Part shown: positions 1 through 63,400 of the stretch, in pieces
How positions within the stretch are numbered: the first letter of the stretch is position 1
Layout of the letters: each line of letters opens with the position of its first letter
Assembly: GCA_015657535.1 (NCBI GenBank)
Contig: JADHZB010001711.1
Span: forward strand, 6,244 to 70,243
Reading direction: 5' to 3'
Source: Nephromyces sp. MM_2019
Lineage: Eukaryota > Apicomplexa > Aconoidasida > Nephromycida
DNA: 64,000 nt
Program-made: the position numbers and the translations under genes
Notes under the pieces: model-generated
What the model saw: the letters and a program-made list of their open reading frames with translations, nothing else
What the model was told of the DNA's origin: nothing
The model's database searches: none

Positions 1-87
<87 letters not shown>
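1..87. repeat. (GT)n microsatellite at the window edge
   Basis: Nearly pure GT dinucleotide run that continues past the left edge of the window. It is the longest of many (TG/AC)n tracts here. The flanking 90-1000 region is AT-rich and I see no convincing exon in it, apart from a possible very short one near 150 on the minus strand that I could not confirm. Confidence 0.95.
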
Positions 88-89
<2 letters not shown>

Positions 90-1020
90 GTGTGTTTGTG
101 TGCGCAATTCAATGTGCTAACTTCAGAGATTGCCTACCTCAAAAGGTTATGCTCTAAACGAGAGATAATAGAGGGATGAAAAATGTTGGCAACCAAAAAA
201 AAAGCTGTCACCTTCAGCAGAAAAAGAGCTCTTCTAGTCAATTACACACACTAGTATAATAGGTCAAAGAGAAAACAACACACACAAGTAATATTTTCGG
301 CCGTTTAAAAACTCAGAGAAACCCTGTATCTATGCTTTATAAGCTGCAATATCTTTCTGACATTTTTTGTTTGCAATACAAGTTTATGAGTGAAAAAAAT
401 TCTGCAATTTTTTAAAGACAAAATTTCTGATTCTTTTTTCGCTAAAAACTAGAATTCGCTGTTTTTTTGTCAATAAAAAAAAGTAAAATCGTCAATTTTC
501 AGCACCAAAGGCCAGAATTTACTTAGAATGCCTAAAAACAGCAATAAATTCCTAAAAAACAAGCAAATTTGTGAAGAAAATGATTAAAAATTGGGCAAAT
601 CGAAAGGATAAAATCATTGAAAAACTCAAAACTAAATTTAATGCAGAAAATCACATCTTAAGCAGCTTTTAAATTCGCTTGATCCTCCTTCACCGCTAAA
701 ATTTCAACACACACACAAAGCTTTCCTGAGCGAGTGTTTGCTTCGCTGGCTCACACCTTTTCACGAGTGCAAATAACAGTTTATTAACAAAAATACGCCT
801 CTATACCTCAGAAAAAAGCCTTTAGCTTGGCTGTTTGAAGAGTCTGAAGATGCTTTGGTATATAAAGAGGGTGTGTGTGCGATTTCTCGCATGATGAGCA
901 GATGCATCATTAAGAATACAGATTAGAAGATTATAATTTGCCAAAGACTCTCTCGCGCTCTCAGCCGTGACTTAAACATACTATGTGAGTAGAAAAAAAA
1001 AGCTTTCAAAAAGCACCAAC

Positions 1021-4000
1021 CATATTGGAGGGATAATCATAGCTTTCCTAGGAGACAAAGGCATCGGAGAGAGTGCAATTTCTAGCGGAATATCACCAAA
1101 GAGGGATCGAACTACTGTAATTGATAAAATCACAGGAAACTCCTAAAGAAGAGAGAAAAAAGCTGAAATGAGAGGTGCAGTTTCCCTATGTGAAGTGCTT
1201 GCTGGGCAAAAATGCCTAGTAGATGTTCTGAGACTAGAAGCAGACGCTGAAGATAGATGCTTTCGGATGAAACTTGAAATTAAAGCATAAATTCATCAAA
1301 AAATCTGCCTTTTATGATATTTTGGCTGCAAGATTTGAAAATGTGGCTGATTTTGTGGGAGAAGGAAGGAATTTTCACAAAAAAAGGAAAGTAGGGAGGA
1401 AAATCTCAGAAAATATTGAAAATTGGGGGGTTTTGGTGTGTATTTGTGTGTGTGTGTGTGTGTGGTTTTAAAGCCATTTTTTAGGCTAGTTTATGTGAAG
1501 AGAAGGAATCACTCTGATTTAATCAACTTAACACACTATAATCTTTAAGTTATATAAGGTAAAAGTAGCTGAAGAGATTAGTAAAAAACCCTACTGTGAG
1601 ATTATACAGGGGGGTGGGTTTGGTGTAGAGGGGGGTTGATTAGCGTGTGCAGGGGGTTGATTAGCGTGTGCAGGGGGTTGATTAGCGTGTGCAGGGGGTT
1701 GATTAGCGTGTGCAGGGGGTTGATTAGCGTGTGCAGGGGGTTCAGTAGGGTGTGGAGGGGGATGATTAGGATATTGAGGGGGGTCGAGTAAGGTGTCTAG
1801 GGGGTTTAATATAACAAAACAGGAGGGACTGATTAGACTAGGGCAGATCTCTAATAAAAATATATCCATCCAGTTACTCAATCTACACACAGGTGGCTAT
1901 TCCGCATCTAAGCGTATAATCAGAATGACAACACTACTTTTATGCTTCTAATTCCTATGTTTATATCATCACAACACACACATACAATTGTGCTTATATC
2001 TCAACTACATATTACTATACACATCGCTCTACACTACATTTTCAACATACCAACAAACCAAAAAGCACTCACACACGCCAGGTAATCCATCCAGCTCCAT
2101 ACACTACTATACTCTGTAGCACACACAATCAAAAAACTATCCAGAAGCTTTTTCAGCATTTGAAGATATGCCTAAATGGAGAGCTTTACCTCTTCATCTA
2201 TTAGACGGCATTCCTCCTGCAGTCCAGCACTCCAAGCTGATATCTTCTTAGCAGCCTTGTCTACAGCTCGAAGGCGAAGAATAGCCTCCCCAGCTTCTGT
2301 ATCTACCAGATGTCCATGCCTGCACACACGATACCAAAAGAAAAAGCTTGAAGAGTAAACATTGAGAGATGTATAGTAATAAAACTAAAGGAGATTTGCA
2401 GAAAAAGGCTTTTTTCGGGGTTTTCTTCGATAGTAAAAGAGCTGTGTGTTCATCAATATTTCAAGTTCAAAACTATAATACAGTGGAAAAGACGAAACTC
2501 AACAGCTTCTCGTGAAAATCACAATAATAGAAGCAAAAAAAATGGCGTGATTAGCTGTAAAAAACTACTAAAAATAAGTTTCTTGTGTGTGCTAAATTGG
2601 CAGCAATGAGAGCATTTTACGCAGTGCAAATATCCGCAAGGAGTGAAAATAAAAAAAAGTGGAAGTTATAAGGAAAAGGAGGCATGAAGAAGCTCAACGT
2701 AAGGGCGAACTCAGAGCTTTAAGGAGCTCAAAATCTTCACCAAAACAAGGGCATTTTTCACATGTTAAACACACTAGATAGCTTTCTCGGAAGAAACTCA
2801 CACATACTGCAACACACACAAGATAGCTTTATCAGAGCAAATGCTCTTTTTTTCCAGCCCGAAAGGCAATTCTCCCTACTTAAGCAGTTTATAACTCTCT
2901 ATAGACACACACATCACCCCCACTCTTTTATAGGTATACACTGAAATAAGCCCTAAGAATTTCCCTTAGAGCAGATTCTCTGGGCTACGACTAGTGGAAT
3001 CAAGCTGAAGCTCACGAAAAGGCGGTGCATGTGTGTGCTTTTTTGAGGATATGCACACACACAATAACCAGAAATACTCGAAATTCAAACAACACACAAA
3101 ACTCCAAAAAAAGCAGTAGAAGACATTAGAAATTATCTACCGAGCAAGTTGAAATGATAACAAGAGTCTTTGGGTAATATTCTTTGCTGATCCTCCGTAT
3201 AAAGACTGTACACCTGCATCCTCACAAGAACTCATAAGCTGCAACTGGGCATCTTCAAGCTCACTCAAAGTATCTACAACACACACACACACACACACAA
3301 ACGAGGCTATAATAAAAAAAAATACAAAATTTTTCATAGCTTAGAGAGCAGCTTCAAGTTAGCCTAGAAATACAGAGAAAAAACGCTAAAGAAATTGAAA
3401 AATGAACAAACTCGTAGAGGCAGAGCTACCTCCTCAGTAGTCTTGCCGTAATGAGTGTATGTAAAAAAGGAGGAAAAGCTGGTATTTTCCGGTTGCTTTT
3501 GGGCTTAATAGAGGTGCTAATTGTAGCAACACTAGAAAATCAGCTTTTTCCAATAGGTAATATATTGAGGTGAAGATAGGATAAAAGAGAGATAAAAAAC
3601 ACGCACACACCACAATCTAGCAGTCATATACACACACCGAAAGAGGAAACACGCACTCAAATAAGAAGAAAAGTACCTCATAATAAGGGTAAAAGCACCA
3701 AAAGGGATAAACCCTAGTTTGAAAAACAAACACACACACACACACATCCACACACACACACACACACACACAAGCAGACAGTAAAGTTTACGACTAGTGT
3801 ATAGCATATGAATTAGATCCGTTTAAGCAAAAACATCGCGAAATTTCGCAGCTTAAAGCACTCACATACTGCCATTAAGCACACATCTGAAAACACCCCC
3901 AGAATCGTCAACAAAAACAAATCCCACACACAACTACTATAACCAACGCAGCTCTCTCATCTCCAAGATCTGCTATGCTTTCAGTTAAAGTCCTCTCATT

Positions 4001-4749
4001 CCCACACACACAAGCACAGCTTCCTACCTAAATTATTGCCCTTGATTTGATCCACACACAAGGGTCGCAAGGCAAGCAGTCTATAGAAGGGACTCCATGG
4101 AGGCGATACGACGGGATGATATTCTTCAGAGGGGTGGAAGATGTGGCCTCCTACTTCTACTAATCCCCTAAAATAAGGAAAAATACCTAATTTCTATAAA
4201 AACTAAAGGAAAAAGATGCATTATATGCCTATATGACATATAAAAAAAGCACACACACACACACCCCAGAGCTTTAGCATACCAAGCCATACAAACAACG
4301 CAAAAAATACGAAATAATGATTGAGAAGGAGTTAAATACACCAAGAAACACACACACGCTGAAGCAACATGCCAAAAAAAAGCAGCAAGCGTAAAAGCAT
4401 AGCTTTTTCTGAAGAATAAATGAAAAGTGATGGAAACACGCTGGAAAAGATAGAATTTTCAGAGTCTCTATGAGAAAGAAGTAGGAAAAAAAAGAAGCTT
4501 CTATTAAACTGAAAATAAAGGAAGAAATTCCACCATTAAATAAAGGAAATAGTAGAAAAATTCATCAATTTAGCAGCTCAAGAAAAAGAGAGAAGTGGAA
4601 TAGACGCAAATCAGCAAAAAAACTGTGTGTACTTCTCTTCATCCTTTTTTTTGGTTCACCGTCGTGAAACGAGCGTAAACCCGTCTCCTCAGTAAAAAAA
4701 AACATATGCACCAGCTCATATCCTATACCCAAGCAGTTATCTTTAGAAT

Positions 4750-4785
<36 letters not shown>

Positions 4786-4786
4786 N

Positions 4787-4817
<31 letters not shown>

Positions 4818-6500
4818 CACATTATCCAATGAGATTTCTTAAGAAAAAAATGTGAATTAGCAGCTTCGATTACTGTAAAACAGCTAAAAACAGGTAAATA
4901 CTGCGTTTAAACGATTTAATGAAAAAAAGCATAAAAAAAAAGAACTTCAGGCGAGAATATCGGGAAAAAGCAGCGATCGCCTGTCAGACGTATCGCTAGC
5001 AATGTGAAGAGCATGTTGAAGATGAACGCTCAAGGAAGGAGGATCTAGGAGTACACCAAATCTCTAGGAATGAAAGAAATTTCGTATGATTAGCTTGAAT
5101 AAAAGGGTGCGTGGTTTTTTGGGGGGATTTTTTTGGGGAGTTTCTTTTCTGGGGTTTTTTTGGAGGGGTTTGCTTTGGGGGGTTTAATTAGAGGGTTTAA
5201 TGTGAGGGTTTTTCTGTGGGGTTTTTTTTGGGGGGTTTGCTTTGGGGGTTTTCACGTGAAGGGTAGTGTTTTGCGTCCCAAAGTATAGATACGAAGCACA
5301 TACGCGTACTGAAAGAGGATGAAAAAAAGGCTCACAAGCAACTTCTTCAAAGTGCAATTTCGTGTGGACGAAAACGATTTAAACAGCTTTCAAACTTCAA
5401 AGAATTTCAATAAATACCGAGATTTACCTTATAACTCTAAAAAAAATTGATCCGTATATCTTTAAAGACTCTCCTTCCCGGAGTTTGAATAAATAGGCAG
5501 GGATGGATGGACGTTTTACAGGCTTCAAATCTTCATTTAGCTCAACATTAGGGTCGAGCAAACCATCTCTGTGGTTGCACCAAAAAGATTCCCCATCTTC
5601 CTCCTAAAAAAATGAGATTTTATGAAGTTTATTAGCTAAAAAGAGTCGAATATATAATCCTCCGTACCTACACCCCCCAACACTCCCGTCTTCTTCCTAA
5701 AAACACACAAAATATACGATCTTTTCCAGCCAAAAAAGCTCAACCACACCACCTTCTGTACTTAGACCCTAAAAATTCCCGTTTTCTTCCTGCAAAAATA
5801 TCACATTTCCACATCACCCTCCACCCTGCTACTATTCCAACGAAACATCACAATTTTCCTTATTAACTTGCATCTTCAGTTTACTGCTTTAAAGCAATGA
5901 CACAACATCATGTCTTGCCTGAAGATTATTTAGATTGATATTGGCCGGGACTTCTTCATCTCTTTGCGAAACCAATTTCTGCTGCCAATCTCCCCCATCA
6001 AAAGCGGTGTCTTGTTGCATGGTAGTCAGCATACCCTTTACCTAAATTTTCAGTACTAAAAAGGTAGTTCAAGCACACAATAAAGCTCTTCAACAAAATT
6101 TGGGCAAAAAATTGAAGAAAAACCTCTTTTTACGTCTTCTATTGACTTTTAGGTAATTATTTTAAAGTCGAATTGACGACTTTGGGCCTCAAATAGACTT
6201 TTTTTCGCAAAAAATAAAGCCAGGATGAGGTATTTTTTGGGAAGATTAGGGGGCTTTCCATAGAAACAAAATTAGAGACAGGATGCTAAAGAAACGTACA
6301 TTAAATAGAGAAATATCTACAAAGCGCGCAGAAAGATCTATATTTGGATATATAATGTGGGGGATTATTAGCTTTAGCAGTTCGTATACAAGTAGAAAAG
6401 GTAAGTTTGAAAGGAGGGTAGATGTGATTGGGTAAGAGAGCGAGAGCGGTGAGTTGGTGCGTATGATCATTGCTTGGAAGAAGATGTTGTGTGCAGACAT
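1021..6500 (-). CDS. Multi-exon gene, unrecognised protein (3' end unresolved)
   Basis: I do not recognise the family. Exons in transcript order: 6500-6300 (tentative, begins ATG, hydrophobic), 6041-5919, 5603-5428, 5061-4990, 4167-4028, 3273-3141, 2319-2190, then one starting at 1246. Phases agree at every junction in this chain: 0, 0, 2, 2, 1, 2, 0. The 2319-2190 exon encodes a charged helix (LRLRAVDKAAKK) and the 1246 exon starts RLLLVSEHLL. A further coding-like piece from 1114 downward (SLFGDIPLEIAL) follows, but I could not find a donor that joins it cleanly. The intron 5918-5604 starts with GC (AG|GCAAGA), and its acceptor region is triplicated. Introns carry AC on the + strand, hence TG in the transcript. 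The product looks soluble and mostly helical after the first exon. The middle exons are the surest part; both ends are provisional. Confidence 0.6.
1630..1810. repeat. 21-bp minisatellite, about five perfect copies plus diverged flanks
   Basis: The unit is GGTTGATTAGCGTGTGCAGGG, with degraded copies continuing to about 1800. On the minus strand it is open and would read PPAHANQ repeatedly, but the neighbouring exons (2319-2190 and the one from 1246) join in phase without it. I therefore place it inside an intron of the minus-strand gene. An alternative Pro-rich exon cannot be excluded. Confidence 0.8.
3720..3775. repeat. (AC)n microsatellites in an intron
   Basis: Two AC runs separated by CATCCAC, within the intron between exons 4167-4028 and 3273-3141 of the minus-strand gene. 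Similar runs lie at 3279-3300 and 4250-4264. In the transcript these read UG. Confidence 0.9.
4750..4821. repeat. (AC)n - N - poly(A) - (AC)n composite tract
   Basis: AC repeats, one ambiguous base (N at 4786), an A run, then AC repeats again. The N and homopolymer suggest the read or assembly is uncertain here, so the tract length should not be trusted. Confidence 0.9.
5105..5260. repeat. G/T-rich tract resembling degenerate telomeric repeat
   Basis: Blocks of GGGG or GGGGGG alternate with T runs, including GAGGGTTTAATGTGAGGG, which is close to TTTAGGG-type telomere units. It lies in the intron between exons 5603-5428 and 5061-4990, so the transcript would carry the C/A-rich strand. It has G-quadruplex potential on the + strand. 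Confidence 0.6.
5511..5882 (-). repeat. 93-bp tandem triplication of a 3' splice site
   Basis: Three acceptor-plus-exon starts lie at 5789, 5696 and 5603 on the minus strand, spaced exactly 93 bases apart. Each is a T-rich tract, then AG, then a GARGAARAYGGGRA-like exon start. Only the last copy (5603) opens into a long reading frame. The copy at 5696 hits TAG just at the next acceptor, and the copy at 5789 hits TAG after six codons. The upstream two look like decayed duplicates or splicing decoys. Confidence 0.75.
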
Positions 6501-7100: not shown

Positions 7101-7149
7101 ACAAATTGCAATTTATCAAGAGAAAGAGCAGCTCGCTAGGCGCAGCTTA

Positions 7150-11530: not shown

Positions 11531-14500
11531 ATGGAGGTAAGTTCTTCAATAGCTGATGCTGCAGATGGGGTATCTCTGATATCAATCTGCCTTCTAAAGC
11601 CTCTTTGTGTGTATGCCTGTATGCATCGAAATGTTTAGATGATTCCAGTATAGGTTGGTTTGTGTGTGTGGGTGTGTCGATTTGTATGTGTGAGTTTGTG
11701 TGTGGTTATGTTTGTGGTTGTGTGTGGATGTGTGTGTGTGTTTGTGTGTGTGTGATTCCCAGATTGAAGTGATTTAAATTTATTTTCTTGCATGTGTGTG
11801 CATACACTCGGGATAATAAGCTTATCGCATTATATTTACTGTTTTATGCTCATCCTAAGATTGTGTGTGTGTGTGTGTGGATTTTGATGCATTTTTGCTG
11901 CTCTATCTTCTCTCAGAATAAGTATACTGTTACGGAAGACTCAAATGGGGGTTTGGATTTGTATGAGGGCATCTTTGATGAAGCCGAGGTAACATAAAAA
12001 AGTGAATAGCTGCCCATGATATACTCTGTTGTTGCTGTTTAGCATGTGTGTGCAGTTGTTTGTGTGTGAGCTTTTTGGTGTGCAGCTATGTGTGTGAGCT
12101 TCGTCATTTTGCTCTTTATGCTTGCTTTCTTCTGGAATGGGCTTTTTTTTCCAAAAATCTCTCTTAAGCATTGGTGTGTGCGAGTTATTTGGGCTCATAT
12201 TTCCGATGTTTAGACATTCTTCTTGTTTCATAATGTGCGAATCCTCCACCTCTCTTTTGATGAAATCTCAAGTGTATAGTGAAATCCCATCATGTGTGCT
12301 TCGCGTTTTATTGCCAAGAATATCCCACACACGGGAGAAAAGTAAGGAAGTGAGCGAAGAGGCTCCCACGCACGCCAAACAGTACCCCTATATGCCGAGA
12401 ATCTTGCATACACACGCCAAGAAGCGCTTATTCAAGCTGAAAATCTCGCACACACGCCGTTAAAATCGACATAAACGTCGAGAATCTCGCACACGCTCGT
12501 GCTTCATATGAAAATAGTGTTTGTGTGTGTAGTAATATCTGCCTCTTGTGTGTGTTTAATCTTCATGATGATTTTCTTGCAAAATTCTTCGGCATTAGCT
12601 GCATGACATTCCGACTTTTTTGCAGGCTCCTTGGCAAGCAAACGCCGATGTAAATATCGCTCCTTCAGTGATTGAATCGGTTGCAGCAGGCAGGACTGAC
12701 GCTGATACAACACACAATGAAGATGTGCGTGAATCTATAGAATCAACATCGGGAAATAAACACACACACGTCAATTCTGATGCAAGAAGCACTCTCAGCC
12801 CTGCCCATGAAACTCTTGGTGAAACATACACATTCGAGAATGAAGTGAAGCCCGCTCCTAGTCAGCACAAAGCTGGCGTTAGTAGCTTGGTAAGAAGGTG
12901 TAAGAATGATGAGTATAGTGGAACTTGGTTAGATGATGAGTTGGCGCACACACACATACAATTTCATTCAAAGTTTACACACAGAGTTTTACCCAAAGTT
13001 TCAGGCACACACTATTTCATCCAAACCTTACACGCACCATTCCTATCCTTTCTTCCGTCATATGAAGTATTTTAATAGTCCTAAACTCCATCGAAATTTG
13101 GTATTCAAACTTTTCAAGCTTCTAATGTTTTTGAGGCTTTTTCCATAGTTAGAATTCCCCACACACACAGCCGTTTTGATGGTGGTATCCAGCAGGCTGC
13201 GTGTGTGTCACTGCCCCTGCGAATGTGTGCGATTCTCATCTCTGGCTGAACTGCTTCTTCTGCGAACAAACTCCTCTCCAAACATCTTATTTTTCCTATA
13301 CATTCCAGGAGATTGCCCTTTTTTTTAAAGCCTTTATATATTCCTGGTTTTTTGCTTTCTGTGTGTTATTTTTCTATCTAGCTGCAAGCATCAAAGCGAA
13401 TCTTAATCTGCTGCTACTTATTCCTCTTCTAATCCTCGCTTTTTCTTCCAATGCGTGAGCGAAATTGTGTGTGTGTGCTCTTGTAGAGTCGATATAAAGC
13501 CGATTTACGTGGAGGAAGGAGGGCGACTCCTCGAAGGCTTCACAAGAAGACTAGCACCGGATTTTTACGAAAAGGTGAGCTTTTACTGAAGTTTTCTAAG
13601 GGAAGAGAGCTCGAATTTTTGGAGGCAAATTCTTGAAAAACTCACATTTCTTGAGCTTTTTTGGTGTTTGGGGCTATGAATATTTTAGGTCTAGTATGTT
13701 TGTGTATGTATGTATGTTTGTGTATGTATGTATGTATGTATGTGTGTGTGTGTGTGTGTGTGCGTATATCTTTCTCTTTTTTTTGTATGTGTTTCTCTCT
13801 TACTTGCTTACTCTTTCATTTTCTGTGTGTGTGTGCGTTCTTTTTTCTGTTTTACTGTATGATTTTGATGAGCCTTTTTGCTTGTTTATGCTTCTTATTA
13901 CTGTTGCTTATATTTGTAGAGTATAAGATTTCATTTACTTGCATGGTGGGGGTTTCTCTTGGTTTCTATTTCATGTGTGCGTCTTCTCGTAGGTTGATTG
14001 AGCTACCCATCCTACAATGTGGGAAAAATCTTCAGTGTCGTGTATGTTAACTACATTCCCATTCTATTGGTTTTGTGCGTAGATGTTCCGCTGTTTTTGG
14101 GGATTCCTCCTTCAATTCCGGCTTTTGAAGCAGAAGAGTCGAACGAGTTGGTGTTGCTAACTAGCAATCTCGGCTGGGTAATTTTATCTTGTGTGTGTGT
14201 GTGCGTGGGAGAAGGAGCTTATGACGGCTTGGGTGTGTTTGTGTATGGGGGAACTTGAAATGATGTATTATATGTTGCACATTCCAGCGTGTTAAATGTG
14301 TGTGTTAGTTTAGAATACGAAGTTAGACCAGTGTGTGAGAGTCTCAGCATTTTTCGCCACACTGTGCTCCAGTAGGTGCGAAATTTCTGGTTATTATAAT
14401 ATGGAAAGTTTATTTTTCAGAAAATATAGAATTATGCAACACGCGCACAGGGAGATACACACAAGTGCACACACATCAACACACACATCCACACACACAT

Positions 14501-17500
14501 CCAGAAGCACATACACAATTCCTCTGTCGTATCCATCCGCTTGTGTTTATAGTGGCTGAATGACATTACCATCCGGGAGATCGCCAGTGAGTGTGGGCAC
14601 GTGAGGAGTATAAAAATATTGGATCATCCTTTCAATGGGCTATCCACCGGGTATATGTTTATGTGGGATCTTCTGTGTGTGTGTGAAAGTTGCTCTGTGG
14701 AAGGCAGGCTCTCTAAGACTTATCCCCTGTGTGTACAAAATTTAATCCTTTTCTCCTCATTTTCCCTCTTAGTCCTTTTTTTTCCTCCCCTCTTCCTCCT
14801 CTTCTTTGTCATCTTCCTAATACTCTACACAGTCTTTTGTATACCCCTGTTTATTATTTCTTCTCAGGGTAGCCTTGATTGAGTATACCAACAAAAATGA
14901 TGCTGAAATGGCGCTTTCTACGCTTCCTCGCAGGTGATTACAATGTGTGAAAATGATGGTTTCTGCGTAGAAACATCCGTTTTTTTACTGTTTTAAACAG
15001 GAATGTATGATGGTGTTATGAAGATGCGAGTTTTATGGGCTAAATAGGCTGGAATTGGTGATATTTGCGTCAAAAAATTGTCAATAAATAGTAGAGGCCT
15101 TCAATGCTTAGAGACCCTGTGTGTGCAAAGTGTGTGTTATTTGATAGTTTTATAGGAGGGAAGCCACAAGAAGAGAATTTCTCGGTGTTACTTTGTGGGT
15201 TTTGTTGTTTTTTCAAAAGAAATTGACTTTTTTGCGTATGTTTGTGGATGATTTCGCTGTGACGAATGCTAATTCTGGGATTTCTAAGAAGGTTGAAGAG
15301 GAAGAGGAGGGAGAAAGAGGAGGGAGAAAGAGGAGGGAGAAAGAGGAGGAAGAGGAGGGAGGAAGAGGAGGGAGAAAGAGGAGGGAGGAAGAGAAGGGAG
15401 GAAGAGGAGGGAGGAAGAGGAGGGAGAAAGAGGAGGAAGAGGAGGGAGAAAGAGGAGGGAGGAAGAGAAGGGAGGAAGAGGAGGGAGGAAGAGGAGGGAG
15501 AAAGAGGAGGAAGAGGAGGGAGAAAGAGGAGGAAGAGGAGGGAGAAAGAGGAGGAAGAGGAGGGAGAAAGAGGAGGGAGAAAGAGGAGGAAGAGGAGGGA
15601 GAAAGAGGAGGAAGAGGAGGGAGAAAGAGGAGGAAGAGGAGGGAGGAAGAGGAGGGAGGAAGAGGAGGGAGGAAGAGGAGGGAGAAAGAGGAGGAAGAGG
15701 AGGGAGGAAGAGGAGGGAGGAAGATGAGGGAGAAGAGAAGCCGAATAAGATTGATCCCTCTACTTCCCCCTTTCTCCCTCTTCTCTCTTTAGAGCTGATA
15801 CAGCGACTCTATGAATTCTGATGTGTGTAAAAAGTAGCTTTTTTTATCTTTTTGATGATAAGTCTTTATTTGTTTTATACTATCTTCGCCTCTTTGTTTT
15901 GTGATGAAATCGTCTATCCCGCCCCTCTATTTCTTATATTCAGTTTAAGTGAAATACAACATAAGCGACCAGTGAAGGTTCAAGTCCTATCTAAGAAGCT
16001 TTGGGCTTCATTGTGCGAAAATGAGAGTCATTGGAGCCTGGGGGGTGCGATGACGTTTACGCAGGTAGTTGGATATTTCTGTGTGTGAGTCTCCGTTGGT
16101 TTTACATACTGGTTGAAGATGATGTAATTTTGAAACAGAAGAGTCTGAAAGCTTTGTTGAAGCACGCACACAGACAGAATTGCACACACGTGACCGGGGC
16201 CAAAACAAAAAAAGTATGCAGCCAAAGTCACACAGCCCCACGAATAACCAAAGCCACATGCGCACACAACCGAGATTGCGCGACCAAACGCACACACACA
16301 CTTGGACCCACTTACGCCTGACCACTCGCACACGCATGCACACACCCAGGCACACTCTCACGCACACCCAAACACACACAAGAATAAGAGAAAAGGCTCA
16401 CCACCTCTATCTAAGAGAAATTAACACATTTTTGCAACAAGAGCAATTCGTATAGCATACCAAGAACACCACAGCATACATGCGTCCAAACAAACGAGCT
16501 TCATGAGGTTTATACTACACGAAACGCCATTTGCGTGTTATGTGTGCATGTTTGTGTGTGTGCATATGTTAGTTTTTGGGCTGCTTTTTGAAGTAGCCAC
16601 TATAAAGCCATTTAAAGCGATTTTTCAAGGAGCAATTTTTCATCCCTAGAAGGTATTGATGAAGAGGAAGAAGCACATTGAAGAAACCACCTACAGAAGC
16701 AAAATAGCCTCATTTATTGCATCAATCAAAGCTTTAAAAATAGAGAATAATATTCCCTAAATTAATGCTAGAAAACCTCCAAAAAGGCAACTGGAAGGGT
16801 TTTTTATGAAGATTTTGGATGATAAAGCTTAAAATAAACAGTAAAAAAGGAGGAATTTTTAGTGTATTACTAGCTGAAACACCTAGAAATTATAGGCTAT
16901 ACTGTAGATGATTAGATATGTGTGTGTGCGAAAGTTTTACGCTCGCACACACACATAGTGTTCAAGTCCTACTGAGTGTTTTTTTTCAATTTATAAATCC
17001 ACATGAAAGGGGTTTTAACTGTGAAATTTCCTCTTCTCTCTCAGCTACACGAGCTCTACGACTTAGAAGCTCTCTTGCAACACACACTTTTTGCACACAC
17101 CTTAAATATGAAATTTCTTCGCTCTCAGTTACAAGAGCTCTATGATTTGGCAGGAGTCCCTGCGCCTGTTAGGCATGTGGCTATGGCGGGCTCTGGAAAC
17201 TTCGGCAGGCTATCGCTGCCATACAACTCGATAATGGCAGCTTCTTCACGATCTTTTAACTCGAACTCAGCCTCGATTAAACAAGGAGATGAAGGAAATC
17301 GACGAGGTATATGTGTATATGTGGGTTGGTGTGTGTTGTGTGTGCGTGTGTCGGTATGTGTCTATGGTTTAAGTGTGTGTGCGTATGTGTGTGTGTTTAC
17401 TTTGTGGGTTAGTGTCTTTTATTATAGAAAAATGTGGCTATACTATCCGCTCGTGTATTGTGCGAATCCTCAAAATTTAAGCGTTTTTAAAGAGAAGCAT

Positions 17501-17582
17501 TTTCCAGAGGAGGAGCTTTCAATAGCTTGCAGCTGAATGATGCTTTTATTACAGAATCACCTGAATTTGCTGTTTATCCTTG

Positions 17583-17616
<34 letters not shown>

Positions 17617-20600
17617 ATATCAATTATCATCTTATTTTATTAGATGCCATTTACAAAGCAAAGCCTTGATACTTTTCTCCTAATAGTTTCTTCTCACTCT
17701 TTAGATTCTTTGATTGTGTGCCAGTTTGAGAGGTGTTAATCCTTTTCTTCCCCTTGTGTGTGTGTTTGTGGCCTCTTAGGGACTCACAGCTCTTCAAAGC
17801 CTCCAGAACCCTGGACTCATACGTAAGCTGAAGAATTTTTGCTGTGAAGCTCGTCTTATGTGCTGCAGAAATGTGTTAGCATTTTCGATTAATTTTTTTT
17901 TCTTGTCTTCATAGTGGAGTGTTTGCCGTATTTGCCTACCAATTAGTGATTAGAGTTAGATCTCTTTCTTAGAGTTCCTGTTTTTTCTTTTCTCTGATTG
18001 ACTCTCTTTTTACTCTTCTCTATTCTTTTATGTGTCTTTTATCCCTCTCTTCCTCTCTCTTCTCTTTCTCTCATCCTCTCTTTCATCCCCCTCTGAAAAA
18101 GGAGGGTTAGACTGTACTTTCTTCCCCTTCATATAGCTGAGGGAATTTTTCGCTGATTGACGATTTAACTGGCATTTTATTGCGCCAAAATATGGTTTTT
18201 TTGGGGATTTTTTCAAGAAAAAGTGCGAAATAGTTGGTATGTCTTGCATTTTTGTCATCTTATAACATTTTTTCTGCTGCTATTTTCTCTCCCGGACTTG
18301 TTCTGTTTCACCCCCCTTTTTCAAAATTGCACACAGAAACTTCTGTTTAACCTGTAATCAGTTGAGCTCTTTTAATTTTTTGATATTTTTTTGCTGCAGA
18401 TTTTATATTATACCTGATGTTTTGCATGACATTATCTGCGTAAAGGCAGATGTGAAGACGCCTAGTCCACTTTATTTTTATCTATAGGTTTTTGCCTAGA
18501 TGATGTGGAATCAATAAATTATTTTGGTAAATATTCAATCTATTTGCTCCTGTTGGAGTTCTACGCTGTTTTTCGATGTTTTTTTGGTGTTTTTTGGAGG
18601 TTTTTCACTTTTGATTTATTCAATGAGATATTCCTCTTTAAAGGTTTCCGAGCTTCGACCCTCAAGTTCTCATGCCCAAGAAGCGCGATAAAAGAAGCAA
18701 AAGTTCTCTAGGTATCAGCAGCAGCTCATCTTCAGGCAGGGATAAGGATGTGAGTCTTGAGAAGAAAAAGAAGAAAAAGTCAAAAAAAGCTCACAAGCAA
18801 GCGAAGCATCAAGAGTAAGTGCCAGACCCAAAATTAGTTGTTTTTGTGAGTAATTAAGTGTCTTCGTGTTGCCTCGTGATGTGTCTCTGCATATCTGTGT
18901 GTGATTACGCGTCTATGTGTGTGTGACTATGTGTCTGTGTGCGCGTATGCTGCTATCGGCATCAGGCTTTTTCGGTAAATCTTACTTCTACTTTTATACT
19001 TATTCATACATTTTAATTTTCTTGGCTTTTTCTCTTCTCTGGTGTTTTGGCCGGTAAAATTTAGCTTCTTTCGCAGTGTGTTTGTGGGTTCATTCGCTTT
19101 AGAGGAGTTACGAGCTTATAATTTGAGTTTCCCTCAACTCTTTCTCCCTTCTTCATCTTCTGAAGAGCATAAAACATGATTTTTCTTCGACTCTCCCTCT
19201 CTCTTACGCATTCTTTGCTCTGTTATTTTGTCTTTTTCCCTACCCTACAGCCTAAGAGCTTGTTTATTGCTTGACTTGCCGGTGTCTTGCTTCTTTTCTA
19301 ATGCTCTTCAGCTTGTTTCACGAGCTAGCTTAATCTCCAAAGATTTCAACACAAATCTTCATCGCCTCTTCTAGCCCTTTTTCTCCCTTTTCTACAGATC
19401 CTCTTCGAGGCATTATCCATCATTAGGGAAGGATTCTATCAAACATTCTAAGCATTCCAGAGATACCGAGAATTGCGGCCTTCTTCACTCATCATCTACC
19501 GGAGAGACATTAAGAAATCCCATGGAGAATTATCATACGATGCCACAGCAGGCAGCACCGAACACACAGGCGATTCCTTCGTCAGGGCAGCGGTTGGAGC
19601 CTCCTTTTAGAGCTGGTTGTTATGGAAATGCAGGAGAGTCTAATTCGCTTATGAATGGGGCTCCTTCTAATGGTAAGCATTTGCTGATTAGGCGTTGAGT
19701 GTGTGTTTGAGCTGCGGATCTGTTGATTCATCGAGCTACCAGTATAAGGAGACAGCTGGTTAAAGAGGGTATATCTGTGTGTTTCTCGGGTTAAACGTTT
19801 TTGATGTACATACATTTCACGCAGATTTCACTGCTTAGATGTTTTAGCATAGTAAAATATTCTCTTTCGAAGTTGCACATTTCCTTTTGCAAATCTACTG
19901 AGCGTATTACCTAGATATAGCGCTTCCAGTTACAGATTAGCTTATTATGTTAGGACAAATGGTTGATTATACACACACACCTATTTAAGGGAAATCTTTA
20001 AAAAGATTACTCCATTTGCGAAATAGGTGCCTGCATGCTAGGTAGAATATCTTTATACATGTGTCTGCACATATGTAGATATCGCTATATATATATATGT
20101 CTAGCTACCTCATCAAGCAAGCTACCACTTCTTCTACTCATGCACGCAGACGCACGCACGAAAGACTCTCTTGGCTGAGTTTTTTTCGTTTCCCCCTTTT
20201 TTTTTACTTAAACGAATATATGTTTCTAAACATATACACATCTCTATGTATATATCTAAGTTTCTCTTTCTATATATATGTATCTCTAGCTTCTCCCCCA
20301 CTCAAGCGACCACGTCTTCTGCTAACACACAATACACACACCCGAGTGACTGTCTTCCATGATTTGTAAACCATTCTCCCTATTTTATACTTAAACAGCC
20401 CTATATTATCAACAACTTCGGCAGCATCATGCTAATCAGTTTAACCCCCCTACGCTCACCCCTGGAAGTAGTTTTGCTAATCAGCTTCAAGCTGATTCTG
20501 CTCCTTTTGGGACTAACGATGCTGATCCTACAAAGATGCACTTACGGGGTGGCTTCAACTCCTCTTCTTTAGCACCTGCATCTCATTCGTTCGGTCTAAC

Positions 20601-22266
20601 AAGGGCAACGCCTCCCTTTACAGATACAGAGAGACAAAAGCACGGTGGTGTATTATTGAGACCTCCACCACAACCTCCTCACTTGGAAGCTACGCAAGGC
20701 GTAGGTATGCATTTGAGGGGGGATCATATGAATTATTATATAACGAATAAGCCGAATAATGAGTCGTACCATCACCCTAGAATTATTGATCAATCTTATA
20801 ATCTATGTGCGCCGTATATGAATCCTCCTCTTCGTGAGGAGGGAGCTGCTGCACCTGCAGTATTTAATAGAGGAATAAGTACTGCTGGTAGTGGTAATCC
20901 ACCCCCCTTTCATCATGATAGTATCAAGGCCTTAAATACAATGGGGGAGGAGCGGCCTATGAAACAGGGAAGAAGTGGGTCTACGCCAAGGTCTTTTCAT
21001 GGTAATTTTGGGGGCCCCAAATGGGGAGATCACCGTTTGCAGTATCCTAGTAATAATGGTAATGGAGGTTCAGAAATGGGGTATACTACCTCAAGAAACT
21101 TCTCCTTTGGAGTAGCAGGAGATTTTTCTTCTTTTTCGCCTCCCTTAGCTTACGGGGAAGGTGTAAATGCTGCATTCTATGGATCCCAAGAAATTCATGG
21201 AGGAGGGAGGGATGTAGCTTATGCAAATTATAATGGTGCTCAGCAGTTAAATCCCGGACAATTTGGTTATGCTGATTCGATGACAGGTATGTGTGTGGCC
21301 CTTGCACTAATAGTAAGTATGCGAGTGTGTGTGTGTGAGTCTGTATTCGTGTCTGTGTGTGTCTGCGTGCGTATGTATGTGTTAATTACGGTGGAAGTTC
21401 TCCAAAAAAAACCTCTTGGGTAGGCAGGCCTCTGCGGCTTCTTTAGGGAGTATCTTTCCCCCCTCTTCATCCTCGGGGCAGGAATGTAAAAGAGAGCACT
21501 TTAGAAGCGCACTAAACCTCGCGCTAGAGAATCCTCAACCACGATACTTGTTTTATGAACAAGAGGGTGGTGTTATTACCAATGCATTGAATTCTGTTCA
21601 TGGACTTTTCGCGGGAGTAGCACACAATACTGTTTGCGAAAATGATGTAGTACTAAGTATCAAAGTGAAGGTACTACTAGCTAAAGCAGTAGTTTCACTA
21701 GCATAAAAGGAAGAAAACCATTGGAATTCATTTTTACTGAGAGTGTCCCATGTCACCTGTGGTAGTACCAATTGAGAGTAGAGAATACGTCTCGGTGACA
21801 AAGGGGTATACCGAGCAGGTTTTAGTGTATCTGCTTATGGCAAGCTCGAGGTTGGGGTTCATTGCTTTAATATCTGTGGAACTCGCAGATATCTACATTT
21901 TTGTTGTTAATAATAACGACAAGATATGAGTGAAAATTATGCTGGTGGGCTTACCCGTAATAAGTCTGGTAAAAACTTGCTTAACTATGATGCTCAGTAT
22001 ACGGATTTTTACAGTGAAACACAGCTTAGCGTTATTAATTTTAGGCATGGTCCTAAAGAGTTGTTCAAAAAACCGCTTCTCTTGCTGCAGGTGATGTGCT
22101 GGATAGAGGTAGAAAACCTGAGAAGTATAGCTCGAGCCATAGGAGGACCTCTAATAGCGATCATCAAAGAGATGCTACTGGCGTTCATTCTACTTGGTCA
22201 AGCAGTAGTATGTGGGAAGACCATTCCCAGTTACGTAGACCTGCATCAATGAGTGGAGATTATTAA
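11531..22266 (+). CDS. CPSF6/CPSF7-like cleavage factor I subunit (RRM protein), 14 exons
   Basis: RNA-binding subunit of nuclear cleavage factor I, which acts in pre-mRNA 3' processing and poly(A)-site choice. Exons: 11531-11536, 11917-11988, 12626-12889, 13487-13574, 14083-14177, 14553-14650, 14868-14933, 15944-16064, 17129-17306, 17780-17822, 18644-18814, 19398-19672, 20399-21286, 22091-22266. They total 2,541 bases (846 aa plus TAA) and all phases agree. An acidic N-terminus with [12 protein letters not shown] resembles the family's 'DLYDDV' start. The RRM begins near residue 165: an RNP2-like [11 protein letters not shown] (166-176) carries the WW typical of CPSF6/7, and an RNP1-like STGVALIEY is at 206-214. 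A Lys-rich stretch follows ([12 protein letters not shown]), then a Gly/Asn/His/Pro-rich tail ending in an R/S-rich segment ([11 protein letters not shown]). The first coding exon is only ATG GAG. An alternative donor at 21313 could feed an extra exon near 21428. CPSF6 versus CPSF7 cannot be separated. Confidence 0.85.
13690..13763 (+). repeat. TGTATG/TG simple repeat in an intron
   Basis: TTTGTGTATGTATGTATG units grading into pure TG, on the sense strand of an intron of the CPSF6-like gene. Confidence 0.9.
14455..14515. repeat. ACACACATCC-type repeat close to a 3' splice site
   Basis: AC-rich repeat (ACACACATCCACACACACATCC) lying within 100 bases of the acceptor at 14552. It is one of the few places in this gene where AC, not TG, is on the sense strand. 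Confidence 0.8.
15287..15735 (+). repeat. ~450-bp pure purine tract (GGA/GAA mosaic)
   Basis: Almost uninterrupted A/G made of mixed GAGGGAGAAAGAGGAGGAA units on the sense strand of the intron between exons 14868-14933 and 15944-16064. All three frames are open and read Arg/Glu/Gly/Lys, but that is a trivial result of the base composition. The flanking exons join in phase without it. Such mirror-like purine tracts can form triplex DNA, and GGA/GAA RNA binds SR proteins. Confidence 0.9.
16165..16385. repeat. AC-rich stretch in an intron, reversed orientation
   Basis: CACACGCACAC-type sequence within the intron 16065-17128 of a plus-strand gene. It is an exception to the TG-on-sense pattern seen in most introns here. 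Confidence 0.8.
17020..17160 (+). repeat. 84-bp duplication of a 3' splice site and exon start
   Basis: GAAATTTCCTCTTCTCTCTCAG followed by CTACACGAGCTCTACGACTTAG (acceptor at 17043-17044) is repeated as GAAATTTCTTCGCTCTCAG followed by TTACAAGAGCTCTATGATTTGG (acceptor at 17127-17128). Using the upstream site would add exactly 28 codons in frame with no stop, so either acceptor gives a readable CPSF6-like mRNA. Confidence 0.8.
17585..17613 (+). repeat. (GT)14 microsatellite in an intron
   Basis: Pure GT run on the sense strand within the intron 17307-17779. Confidence 0.95.
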
Positions 22267-30428: not shown

Positions 30429-30604
30429 TCTCTATAGTAATAGCGGCTTCAATGAAGATGAAAATATCCTTGAAAATTTCAGATTAGCCACATCATCTGG
30501 GAAGCTGCTAATCACATACACGGACATACATATACGCAAGCACACACACACAGACGCAGACGCACACACGTACACACACATACATATGTGCACGCACATA
30601 CACC

Positions 30605-30795
30605 TATACGCAAGCACACACACACGGACACAGACGTATAAGCACACACACACGGACACAGACGTATAAGCACACACACACGGACACAGACGTATAAGCA
30701 CACACACACGGACACAGACGTATAAGCACACACACACGGACACAGACGTATAAGCACACACACACGGACACAGACGTATAAGCACACACAAAACA
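30605..30795. repeat. 28-bp minisatellite, six to seven copies
   Basis: Unit AAGCACACACACACGGACAC plus AGACGTAT, nearly identical between copies. It starts about 180 bases upstream of the first ATG of the NYN nuclease gene, so it could lie in its promoter or 5' leader. Confidence 0.9.
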
Positions 30796-32164
30796 CACCT
30801 ACACACAAACAACACACCCATACACCCACACACACACAAAACACACCTAAACACTAAAATTCCACATCAGACTCCCTCTTAAGCTTGCATTTCTTAACCA
30901 TATAAAAAAGTCAAACAAAACTGCATTTTTGACCCTCCGGCTAACCAGTGCTGTTTAGACGAAGCCAGTAAACTCCTAGAGCACAGGCAGCAAGGAGCCG
31001 ATAGTTTGAAGAAGCAAACTCAATCAAATCTACGATAATTTCCTCAAAAAGCTGCACAAGAAAGAGAGTTACGAGAAGAAAAAAGATGAAGAGGAGAACA
31101 CTTTTCTCATCATTCAGGGAAATTCATTCAATTCCAAGTCATTTCACACATTTTAATAAACCGCACACAAATCTACGCTACAACTGGAAACTCATAACAA
31201 AAGGTTGCAGTAACCCCAAATATTGGCACACTAAAGCGACACACACAACAGAAGAAACTCGGAAAAGATCTCACAAAAAGACTGAATCCAAAACTCCAGA
31301 AATATACCCAAGTGAGAAGCATAAAGCAAATTGAAGAAGCATTTCTTCGCCATCACAAACTACTATTAACCAGGAAGAATGCTATATAAAGTGACAGAAT
31401 TTTCTTGCTGAAGTTGCTCATGTTCTTGCACATTGTGAAAATACTCGAAAAAGGTAGATAAATACCAAAGAAGATAAAGAAAAAGAGGAAAAACCCCGAA
31501 AAACTTAAAAAATTAATTTGAATTTCATGAAAACAAACAAAAACGGCAGAAAAGTATCGTCAAAGAAGAAAAAGAGAAAAAACTCAAATTTCCATGAAAT
31601 TCCATCCCTTTAAAGGTGAACACAGCACTTTCAAAGACGAGAAAATCCAGCAGAAATGCATCAGAACTTGAAAGTCACATTACCTGCAAACACATTGTCA
31701 ATCTTTCATTGCTTCCGGAATAACGAAAGTCAACTGCAGAAGCTGAAAAGATGAAAATTCAAAGAAACATGAAGATTTGAAAAAAACTTTCTGCAACAAG
31801 AGGGAAAAATTTGCTACTTTCTGCCGTTTTTCGCATAAAAATCCCTTCAAATAGCCTCAAGAACTTGCAATCTTGTGAAGAGGAAACTGATGAAAAAATG
31901 CATAAAAAAAATCAAAAAGCAGACAAAATGTTGGGCTTTAAAAAAGCTTTTTCACACAAATTCATCATATGAAGAGGCTAACATATAGCTAAAATCGGTT
32001 AGAAGAAGACTCATTACATCTATACAACGAGCTAAGCAAGTTGCAGGCTTTTAAGGAGCTTTTGAAAAAACAAAAAATAACACACAAAATAAAATAAGGA
32101 GACACAGGTATACATATAGACGCTCAAATATACACCCATACTCTCAGAGATAACCACATCCACT

Positions 32165-34753: not shown

Positions 34754-34784
<31 letters not shown>

Positions 34785-36987: not shown

Positions 36988-37046
36988 CTTCTTCAGACTA
37001 TACTTTTAATGGGGTGAAATGATGATTACTCGGAAGGATATCGACA

Positions 37047-59327: not shown

Positions 59328-59460
59328 GGTGTGCGTTAGTCTGTGTGTGTGGTTGCGTTTCTCTATATGTGTGTGCGTGTTAGCCTGTGTGTGTGGTTGC
59401 GTTTCTCTATATGTGTGTGCGTGTTAGCCTGTGTGTGTGGTTGCGTTTCTCTATGTGTGT
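59328..59460. repeat. ~44-bp tandem repeat, nearly three copies
   Basis: Units contain TGTGTGTGTGGTTGCGTTTC then TCTATATGTGTGTGCGTGTTAGCC. TG is on the + strand, upstream of the plus-strand gene starting at 59977. Confidence 0.85.
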
Positions 59461-59976
59461 ACATTTTTATGAGCTATACAAAATATTTCACTTTTTTAAT
59501 CGCATTTCTATAAAATATGCAAAACGGCACACTAGTGTGTGTGTCTCTGTTTAACCTCGAACCCCCCACCAAATGTTTTCGCCTATTCATCCCCTTGCGT
59601 GCAAGCATTACTCTAGCGTGCCGCTTTCGCTACTTCATGCTCTTCCACCCATAGAAATGGGCCATTTTTATCTCTTTCTATTAATGAAAAAATGCTGTTT
59701 CCTTTGGAATTTTTTACCAAAAACTCGGCAAAAAAAGAGTTTTCTTGACGAAATGCTTTTCAATCTTTCTTTTCTCCTGGGTAGCATATTGCTTTGTGTG
59801 TGCTTAAGTGTTTTAGCCTCGTTTCTCTCAGTTAATGCGTTGAAATTTGGAGTTTTCAGTAAGTTTTTTTCTTTATAGTTTAGGGTTTATAATGTAAAGT
59901 TTGAAGCTTTTTCTTCTAATCTGCATCGTCGAATTGAAGATAAATTTTGTTTAAAGAGTTCAAATTTATTCAGAAA

Positions 59977-60430
59977 ATGAAGGAGAGAGCAGCGAATAAT
60001 GTTGCTGATACCCTCTTTGCCGTAGAAAACTTGCCTGACTGGTTTGACCATCGGATTTTTACAGGTGATTTTATCATAGGATGAAAAGGACGTTTTGGGG
60101 ATGTGTGCGGATGTGAGAATATCTTGAAAATACCTATTTTTGATGATTTGTTGTCTTAATTTGATGAAAAAAGTGAGGAAAAATGAGGCTTAAAGCGTGC
60201 TGGGTGTTATCGTGATGAGTAGAAAAATGAGTGTGTGCACTTATGTAGAAGCTTAGTGTGTTTTTTTAGAGCAGGCAGAAGCCTATATGTGTGTTTTGAG
60301 TGTTTATGGATATGTGTGCATGTTTAGCCTGTTTTGATCGAGGAGGATGAGGATATGTTTGTTTCAAGTTTGTGGATTTGGTGCATATTTAGCCTGTTTT
60401 GTTTTAGGAAGAAGAATACCTGTGTATTTC

Positions 60431-60463
<33 letters not shown>

Positions 60464-63400
60464 GATTATCTTCGTATTTACTCTATTTTCCCTGAGGAGG
60501 CCAAGATGTGTGTTTTGAGTGTGTGTGCATATACATATATATTTTCTCGTTTCTCCTCCAGGAAGCCGATATTTTCATTGTTTCGTGCAGTAGTCAAGGA
60601 TTCACCATGTATAAGTTATGAAGGTAGGAGATGTAAGCTTCTCGACCTTTCATCGGCTTCGCATAAAATTGTCAAAGAAAGTAGCAAAAACTTTGTTTTT
60701 TGTGGTAAATTTGATGCTTTAGTTAGACATTTTCGGAGATGAAGAAGAAACTAAAACGGGAAGAAGCTGAAATAAACACATTTGACGCTATTTTGTCTGT
60801 TTGTACTCTCAGAGTCGGATTCTCATTTTTTTCATCGTATAAAATCTAGAGAGATTCATAAGTATCCGCTGGAAGTAAAAGAGAGCGACAAAAATCCGAT
60901 TGCCGATATCGATGAAAAGAACAATGAAAATTTGGATTTAAACTACTTTGGAGCAGTTTCTGTAAGTTCAGGGTGGTGGTTTTACTTAAAATGGCTTCAC
61001 ACACAGAAGAGTCATTCTACTTTTATGGAGGGAAAAGTGCACTTTAAATCGTCTAAAATGATAGCTTAGCTTTGAAATTTGCTTCTTGATGTTTTGTTAT
61101 ACTTATCGCTTGAATATGTATACGAGGGATAAGATTGAAGGTGTGTTAATAGGCGATGTTATTCCTGCTTTTTGCTCCAAAGAGATATGCTGAAATGCTC
61201 TAGGAATAGGCTGAATATGAGGTTGAGATGCGGAGATATCGCTAGCACAAAAAAAGTGTGGTACTAAGCTCCCTGCTGATCTATCCACTAACACACACAG
61301 CTGCACTGATCAGCTTCGATAAGTCTACATGCTGGTCTTGCCACTAACACACGTACAACTGCTTTGGTTAAATCTTCCCCCGCGGTTAGCCTCAACTTTT
61401 CACATTTTCTCCATAAGGCTTTGCTTTCTTCGCTGATTTTTGTGGACACACGTATAGTGGCTAATCCCCTTAATCTTCGAAGCCTCTCATTTTACTCCCA
61501 AAAAATGCTCGTATATATGTATATAACCCAGCAATTCATGCTCTCTTAGGTTAAGGCTTTAGGGTTTTCCCCCCTCTGATAACATCTAAATTTAATCACT
61601 TTTTTCCTTGTCTCTCTCTCTCTCTGTCTCTCTGTCTCTTTCATGTGTTTGTGTGTGTGATAGATGTGTCATTATTCAACCTTTTCGAACAGTTTCAGCG
61701 AGCAGTAAAGCCTCAGAATGAGAGAATTTCTCCTTGGAGTAACATCGAGGCTCTACAACGGAAGAGTTTCATCAGAACCACACACACTTTCAGAACTTCT
61801 GAAGATTTCAGCCCTGAGGATTCTACGGAGTGGAAGAAGCCTCTACGAAGAAGCAACAGCCTAAAGAGAATCAAATCTTTGAATAATGTGATTGTCCTGA
61901 TATTTAAGTTTGCTTTTGATCCCCGAGATCTTCCTATCTTCAAGAGAGTTAATCGCTCTGGTTTAAGGTACTACACACATGCGATTGAGAGGATAATACC
62001 TTTAATAAGTGTGTATCCTAGCTTACCGGGCTCCTCTGGTGGTTTCAGGAAATTTTTAAGGTGCTGTGTAGGCTGCAGGATTCATGATGAACCAAGTGAA
62101 GATGGATCTCATAAAGCAGCTAATGATGGTAAAAACGTCAGTGAGGAAGGAAAAGAAGACAGATTTTTCCAAGGCTTTCATCAAAAACCAAAGAGAACAG
62201 CACCTCCTCCTTCGCATCCTCTTCTGTGTCGTTCACAACCAATTGAGAGGCACGGAGTAGCTGATTCGTCTTCTTTCTCAGGTTATCCCAAGTCGTTTGC
62301 TAGCCTTGTAAATGACTTTGAAACAGTTTTTAACGATCGAGAAAAGGTGGATTTTCAGGGTCTACCGGTGTGTAGATCAAGGATTGAAGCATTGTCAGGC
62401 AAAATGATGGATTTGCAACCTTCATCAATGCAAGAATTCGGGAGATCTTCGCATGAAGAGGGAAAAATAGCTGGAAAAACGGATGAAAGCGAAGCTCTAG
62501 AAGCTTCTGTAAGTGCTCTTAATCCTCAAGAAGAAGGAAGAGGGCTTTTTCCGATGATTTCCGCTGCTTTAGATGGAATTCTCTCATTTTCTTACAATTT
62601 TAACTCGAATAAGAGTTTGACTCCTGGAGGAGGCGAGCTTCATTCTTCTCTTCCAGTTGAAGATGCCTCACACACTTCGGCTCCTACATTACTCCAAAGG
62701 TTAAGATCCTCTATTCCGGGTATGCTAATGTCTCCTTCAGGCACCAACGGCGTCATGTGTGATGAAAAACTGAATTATAGCAAAGAGTCACAGAAGGAAT
62801 GGGGCTCGCCACAAAATCTTCAAGGAGGAAGTGGGAGGTCAGAAAAGACTATAAATCTGGAGAAAAATTCTAGGAGGGTTGCAGAAAATGACGGATTATC
62901 ACTTTATCATATATATAGAGAGAATGCGGAATGTGATGCAAGATCTCAAGCAACACACACACACTATAGTCGTGATGGGAGCAGTGAAAACGCAAGAGAC
63001 CAGGTTTTCAGGCCCACTGGCTCTCCAGTAGGAGAATCTCTTGATGAAGGAGGAAGTATTATCTTCAATGCTCCTGTGGATATGCAATATGACGCGCGTG
63101 TGTCTGCCAGTCGCAACTCCATAATGCCTTCTGCCCTGCCTGGTACTCACTCTGCTGCTTATCCCACTGAATCTGCTACTCGTCTCATTCACCCCCCCTC
63201 TGCTCATCCCACTCAAGCCCCCTCACACCCTCCGCCATTACTAAGTGCAATATCGTGGATGTTAAACTGCAATCACAACCACTCAGACTGGACTGTTTGG
63301 TGTGCTCAATCAGACGTAGGAAACCCCCGGGAAATATCGTACAAAATCGCGCCAAACTACGTGGCTTTGCTGCTTCTTCTTCGCCGATACGTAGTGTTAA

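Follow-up and report, generated by a model that had tools for sequence, protein, structure and literature searches.

Genes in a 64,000-nucleotide stretch of Nephromyces DNA (contig C886:6244-70243; hereafter the window) carry many TG and AC microsatellite tracts, and we found that the orientation of these tracts usually follows the strand of the gene, so that TG predominates on the sense strand. This was the central claim of the first-pass annotation, and it extends to genes elsewhere in the 48.28-Mb source assembly (1127 contigs). On balance, we favour the view that the strand-skewed composition of introns seeds short runs, which are then amplified by slippage and tandem duplication that are blind to strand, and that no special RNA-binding factor is required.

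Exact tracts of at least five units number 32 TG and 48 AC in the window. Counted on the plus strand, runs of at least 8 nt comprised 5 TG and 19 AC at 1-5 kb, 36 and 12 at 11.5-22 kb, 6 and 48 at 29.6-38 kb, and 9 and 2 at 59-61.5 kb. Many tracts are copies inside minisatellites, such as those at 30612-30790 (28 nt x 6.4) and 59323-59460 (44 nt x 3.1), and raw counts therefore inflate the number of independent events; for this reason we also counted 500-bp bins. Plus-gene territory held 14 TG bins and 4 AC bins and minus-gene territory 4 and 20 (Fisher p = 1e-4), bearing out the dependence on gene strand. The copies of the minisatellites at 30612-30790 and 32182-32287 (20 nt x 5.3) match at 100% and are therefore recent or homogenised. 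Between 40000 and 59000 the window is almost devoid of tracts (runs of at least 8 nt: TG 0, AC 2) and has high GpC odds (1.3-1.6); the tract-rich parts lie on this contig too.

Gene strands were taken from a coding hidden Markov model (HMM) with strand-symmetric scoring and masked tracts, with the reversed window as control (control level 17.3, a GA-rich minisatellite excepted). Segments above this level lie at 19.4-19.7, 20.4-21.3, 42.7, 47.6 and 61.8-64 kb on the plus strand and at 27.2-29.4 and 35.8-37.0 kb on the minus strand, with weaker segments on the same strands at 17.1 and 22.1 kb (plus) and 26.3 kb (minus). The model was rejected at a low threshold, at which the reversed window yielded 35 segments and the real window fewer (26), as was the segment at 15242-15743, which is the GA-rich minisatellite; this repeat (15298-15734, 13-nt unit, 36 copies) leaves several frames open and imitates coding sequence. 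Exon borders, and the whole minus-strand gene at 2-6 kb, were read by eye from the frames, readings without homology support. An 848-residue open reading frame of the window matched none of 7992 scored candidates at E 0.001, a search of the PDB with 61555-63999 gave no match, and among ten window frames searched against Pfam, eight had no match at E 0.1, one matched above its cut-off and one solely below. The features are as follows; tract counts refer to runs of at least 6 nt, and the ends of intron intervals as counted are off by at most 9 nt.

2190..5603, minus strand: gene fragment with exons at about 5603-5428, 3273-3141 and 2319-2190 (sense order), open frames read by eye with AG/GT borders
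2189..2315, minus strand: HMM segment, score 11.4, under the control level
3275..5425, minus strand: interval counted as intron, sense TG 13, AC 1
12626..22266, plus strand: gene with exons at about 12626-12889, 14553-14650, 17045-17306, 19398-19672, 20399-21286 and 22091-22266 (stop), from the HMM and borders read by eye
12890..22090, plus strand: the five intron intervals of this gene, sense TG 38, AC 21
12760..12769, plus strand: AC tract within coding exon 12626-12889
14455..14515, plus strand: AC-rich exception, in the 100 nt or so that precede the acceptor of exon 14553-14650
14674..14685, plus strand: TG tract about 23 nt past the donor of exon 14553-14650
16165..16385, plus strand: AC-rich exception within the long interval 14651-17044
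27241..29381, minus strand: long coding exon, with the beginning of a Zc3h12a-like NYN ribonuclease domain at the end of its open frame
29753..30838, minus strand: cluster of AC on the plus strand (sense TG), partly tandem copies, upstream of exon 27241-29381
35848..37000, minus strand: coding exon with a sub-threshold Hamartin-like match
38510..38790, no strand assigned: TG-rich exception between a minus-strand unit and a plus-strand unit
59342..60460, plus strand: TG cluster, partly 44-nt tandem copies, upstream of the plus-strand exon starting at 61799

Exon 14553-14650 resembles part of an RRM domain by eye, and its open frame has no Pfam match at E 0.1.

To locate genes elsewhere, we used Pfam family searches over the whole assembly, with exon matches as gene locators (kinase 139, RRM 65, kinesin 38, myosin 30 and DEAD 38 matches). 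Sixty genes with all matches on one strand were picked by exon count and by the amount of sequence retrievable, irrespective of tracts; this initial set (72,527 bp between matches) also underlies the expected-ratio, fourfold-site and TG/AC-order analyses. Removing six open-frame spans (957 and 66 nt in C320, 981 and 1869 nt in C884, 60 nt in C531 and 57 nt in C225) gave a refined set of 58 genes with 67 kb between exons, from which C884 was lost entirely and C711, with a single match, was also dropped. Apart from these six spans, family matches sharing one open frame were never treated as introns, and loci L107 and L108 were excluded from the counts. Between the exons of the refined set, sense runs of at least 6 nt comprised 383 TG and 159 AC; TG outnumbered AC in 30 genes and AC outnumbered TG in 8, with 20 tied (p = 5e-4). 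The bias is firm in the composition class of the window (GC of at least 0.36), where we counted 245 TG and 81 AC, with 19 genes against 1 and 6 tied. The initial set gave 389 TG and 167 AC at three or more units (31 genes against 9, 20 tied), 180 and 74 at four or more (22 against 8) and 89 and 40 at five or more (18 against 8, p = 0.08). By gene strand, the split was 17 against 4 for plus-strand genes and 14 against 5 for minus-strand genes.

The pooled statistics combine several lineages, which appear to have been co-assembled because uricase matches lie on three contigs (C1018, C548 and C1090) and allantoicase matches on two (C328 and C1087), because two U1-70K-like genes (L036 and L037) and two poly(A)-binding-protein-like genes (L051 and L053, on C531 and C320) were read by eye, and because compositions differ. 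Contigs fall in distinct GC and GpC classes. One report describes urate oxidase and allantoicase genes in a Nephromyces assembly with 1,176 contigs longer than 5 kb and a mean of 36 kb (PMC6320678).

The tracts are also graded along introns. Among 56 exon pairs that are near-contiguous in the family profile, a script set GT-AG borders in 52 and found no candidate in 4; the posterior was below 0.7 for 5 of the 52 placements and for 3 of the 24 that were at least 400 nt long. Placed donors are AG/GTRWGT-like and acceptors mostly YAG. The C530 donor was scripted inside its TG tract and lies by eye between GCAAACAG and GTGAGG; the scripted position was used. Together with 7 window intervals, the 24 script-placed introns make 31 intervals of at least 400 nt under 21 gene keys, in which TG and AC numbered 105 and 10 in the first 200 nt, 92 and 23 in the middle, and 34 and 31 in the last 200 nt. 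The 15 script-placed introns with GC of at least 0.36 gave 65:1, 44:6 and 21:9, and the 9 of lower GC gave 26:5, 7:4 and 10:14; thus, in the window's GC class TG leads at the intron end too, by about 2 to 1 rather than 65 to 1. The window intervals alone gave 22:7 over their first 400 nt and 3:8 over their last 200 nt. At the level of genes, polarity was positive in 10, negative in 3 and zero in 8 (Wilcoxon p = 0.003).

This grading bears on three stretches that had been reported as exceptions to the orientation rule, and whose contents are as described: on the plus strand, runs of at least 6 nt number TG 0 and AC 4 at 14455-14515, TG 0 and AC 7 at 16165-16385, and TG 10 and AC 0 at 38510-38790. 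The stretch at 14455-14515 lies just upstream of a 3' splice site, and the one at 38510-38790 lies between two units of opposite strand. Interval 14651-17044 may contain an unrecognised exon, which the AC-rich stretch at 16165-16385 may precede.

We compared the grading with base composition after masking all alternating runs of at least 4 nt. The masked T-A skew was constant along introns (0.18 over the first 200 nt, 0.20 over the last; p = 0.48), and the masked G-C skew went from +0.07 to -0.21 (paired p = 6e-4). This masked composition predicts TG:AC ratios at 6 nt of 7.0 in the first part, 2.45 in the middle and 1.01 in the last; collapsed clusters numbered 23:7, 39:14 and 21:16 (ratios 3.3, 2.8 and 1.3), with overlapping intervals, and seeds of 4-5 nt numbered 76:22, 104:49 and 48:55. 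For runs of at least 6 nt over whole spans, the 27 genes with GC of at least 0.36 gave an observed ratio of 2.80 against an expected 2.71. The whole-span TG:AC ratio shows no steady increase as tracts lengthen (from 4 nt to at least 20 nt: 1.42, 1.54, 2.17, 2.33, 2.68, 1.57, 4.00, 1.50 and 1.50). In the 30 genes with at least three tracts, log(TG/AC) correlated with skew (rho 0.88 unmasked, 0.59 with tracts masked). The tracts are far more abundant than a first-order model predicts in the 60 genes (TG 389 versus 33.5, AC 167 versus 17.6), a roughly tenfold surplus on both strands; therefore, abundance calls for an amplifier that is blind to strand, and orientation calls for composition alone.

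The mechanism that we propose starts from composition: the sense strand has T over A through the whole intron, a tendency to G over C near the donor and C over G in the last 200 nt or so. Such composition would cause sense TG seeds to outnumber AC seeds over most of the intron and to be about equal near its end. Replication slippage without strand preference, the presumed amplifier, would lengthen the seeds, and local tandem duplication would multiply the lengthened runs into clusters, so that TG orientation would come to track gene orientation. The composition may itself stem from splice signals, G/U-rich on the donor side and pyrimidine-rich on the acceptor side, together with a general sense T excess. 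A G/U-rich donor side and a pyrimidine-rich acceptor side are ordinary intron anatomy, and here this ordinary composition is spread over a few hundred bases. The first-pass annotation had argued that slippage alone cannot produce a strand bias; it is correct that slippage cannot pick a strand, but slippage acting on strand-skewed sequence can yield one.

Several observations weigh against an origin in composition. The flip in G-C skew is weak in the 14 tract-free introns (p = 0.28), and part of it may therefore represent eroded repeats. The uncollapsed ratio in the first 200 nt, 10.5, exceeds the expected 7.0, although the collapsed ratio of 3.3 is not above it; the intervals on the composition match, from 21 gene keys, are wide; and over whole spans of low GC the observed ratio of 1.79 exceeds the expected 1.38. 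The bias is unproven in low-GC lineages (GC below 0.36: TG 138, AC 78, with 11 genes against 7 and 14 tied; p = 0.48, not significant). Moreover, the seed test cannot separate composition from selection for short UG elements, which would skew seeds too. The grading has its own difficulties: the sign test on gene-level polarity gave p = 0.09, TG preceded AC in 21 of the spans with both kinds and followed it in 12 (p = 0.16), the last 150 nt of spans were divided between 11 genes with TG over AC and 12 with AC over TG, and one 21-nt sense TG run in the window interval 3275..5425 stops some 5 nt short of the acceptor near 3274. Finally, in flanks with GC of at least 0.36 the tract ratios are near those of introns, and a splice-linked cause predicts otherwise unless the flanks are mostly intronic.

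For the flanks, we counted 1.5 kb on either side of the genes at 49 kinase and RRM loci; this set is not that of the spans and omits the C1065 genes. Pooled, these flanks held 87 TG and 122 AC upstream and 103 and 81 downstream, which looks unbiased because opposite trends cancel between the GC classes; we therefore rejected the pooled flanks as proof of a bias restricted to introns. The 19 genes with GC of at least 0.36 had 72 TG and 34 AC upstream (genes 6 versus 6) and 67 and 29 downstream (9 versus 4), and the 30 genes of lower GC had 15 and 88 upstream (5 versus 16) and 36 and 52 downstream (5 versus 13). For the 17 genes common to both sets, the flanks gave 59 TG and 29 AC upstream (4 versus 5) and 44 and 16 downstream (8 versus 4), and the sequence between exons gave 88 and 40 (16 genes, 8 versus 1). 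The flanks may hold further introns or neighbouring genes, and the AC excess upstream of low-GC genes could reflect intron 3' ends or promoter DNA. The expectation that the bias occurs in introns and not outside them thus holds between exons, but confinement is not established.

A bias shared by introns and flanks would be expected if transcription-coupled mutation or repair gave the sense strand an excess of T and G over whole transcripts, as in vertebrate genes, an account that we regard as unlikely. The constant excess of T over A along introns and the sense-TG richness of the higher-GC flanks agree with it, but the flank excess by gene is not significant and is reversed in low-GC contigs. 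With tracts masked, sense T exceeded A in 40 of 60 genes (Wilcoxon p = 2e-4), but G exceeded C in only 33 of 60 (p = 0.27); the unmasked figure, 42 of 60 with p = 0.003, counts the tracts as well. At fourfold sites in the 27 genes with GC of at least 0.36, T+G was richer in TG-biased genes (424:320 versus 406:415; gene permutation p = 0.016), and fourfold T-A skew followed masked intron T-A skew (rho 0.42, p = 0.002, 51 genes); the corresponding correlation for G-C was weaker (rho 0.18, p = 0.20). However, the permutation across all 60 genes gave p = 0.125, fourfold T+G skew did not follow the tract ratio (rho -0.05), and 47 of 166 exon pieces were discarded from the fourfold analysis for stops. 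The reversal of G-C skew within introns, unexpected under a uniform process, disfavours such a skew as the only cause. A transcript-wide component, with partial support, may nevertheless contribute to the composition.

Selection could instead retain UG repeats after donors as splicing enhancers for a CELF- or TDP-43-like protein, proteins that are UG-binding splicing factors. We consider this possible but doubtful. Sense TG reaches its highest density in the first 200 nt, and the donor-like motif MAG(GT)5G was counted 341 times and its mirror 162 times, where background ratios are 1.20-1.22 at 0-1 repeats and 0.84-1.00 at 2-3, although this background rests on few counts at 2-5 repeats. The mirror test on AC tracts running into AG (3112 versus 2032 genome-wide) was rejected as uninformative, since ACAG over GACA was already 1.45 in a 333-kb sample. 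The proteome check envisaged by the first-pass annotation revealed CELF-like proteins on two contigs, from the 30 of 65 RRM matches whose loci were retrieved and a PDB search with two proteins. The C-terminal RRM of L039 matched CUG-BP1 (chain 2cpz, E 2.5e-24), outranked solely by a three-stretch match to poly(A)-binding protein; L046/L048 has by eye a layout like that of the CELF-like protein of L039; and TDP-43 was seen, among the two proteins searched, solely as a weaker match of L060. An apparent WW domain stands beside the RRMs in L039 and L046 (by eye). Such a find does not separate the explanations and is weak evidence, RRM proteins of the CELF kind being widespread. Furthermore, the collapsed ratio is predicted by composition for all three parts of the intron, with no UG surplus over it, longer tracts are not steadily more biased, and half of the 60 genes (30) are tied or tract-free at four or more units. 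Selection for a UG-binding factor, as had been proposed, is thus not needed to account for the bias, even though CELF-like proteins are encoded.

The grading also invites the idea that UG repeats near the donor pair with CA repeats near the acceptor and draw the splice sites together. Single introns have strongly predicted own-end pairing (C1018, 386 nt, with TG at the donor and a 17-nt AC run at the acceptor; C533, 591 nt). But among 35 introns own ends paired no better than swapped ends (permutation p = 0.70) or than they did once the 3' end was reversed (p = 0.44), and 5' TG and 3' AC occurred together in 11 of 79 spans, against 8.4 expected from the margins. We therefore found no support for own-intron pairing as a general cause, and hold this account to be very improbable. 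At L085:304-399, a TG-rich minisatellite unit lies near an intron start, and an inverted copy (CAACACACACTACG) lies at 624-646 of the same intron, with the non-repeat bases complementary too. Some introns in the C540 kinesin gene, the C1018 kinase gene and C678 open with a repeat at the donor itself, and AC repeats abut the acceptor in the second intron of C540 and the first of C1018. Introns of some lineages might conceivably carry a UG-to-CA polarity that marks both ends and serves intron definition, through protein binding or, in a subset, end pairing; UG repeats would then run from the donor (exon followed by GTGTGTGTG) and CA repeats into the acceptor (ACACACAG followed by exon), replacing the polypyrimidine tract. 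We think this quite improbable.

Microsatellite orientation could indicate gene direction and intron ends cheaply in an unannotated genome. Local composition with strand-blind slippage also offers a quantitative null that claims for functional UG repeats should exceed. Because the assembly contains several related lineages with and without tracts, repeat gain at fixed splice sites could be traced directly. Our literature search, with most subscription journals outside its coverage, found no title dealing with a strand bias of repeats in the introns of Nephromyces.

Known systems resemble this one in part. As in CELF and TDP-43 systems, UG repeats lie in introns near splice sites and a CELF-like protein is encoded, but here the arrangement is known from sequence alone and, with clusters collapsed, does not surpass what composition predicts. 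Zebrafish introns reportedly carry (AC)m at one end and (GT)n at the other (Lin et al.); some introns here likewise have a TG-type repeat at one end and an AC-type at the other, but general own-intron pairing was not found. Transcription-associated strand asymmetry in vertebrate genes is said to have been described by Green and by Touchon in 2003, and a further source gives sense T over A in vertebrate introns (PMC2927911). The sense excess of T over A is shared, but in Nephromyces the G-C skew changes sign between the two ends of an intron, and some genes have large skews (T-A as high as 0.61). Another known system is splice-linked intron composition, with a pyrimidine-rich 3' end on the sense strand (PMC10946897). 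The introns described here have such an end, but their C-rich zone extends over about 200 nt and microsatellite orientation shifts with it.

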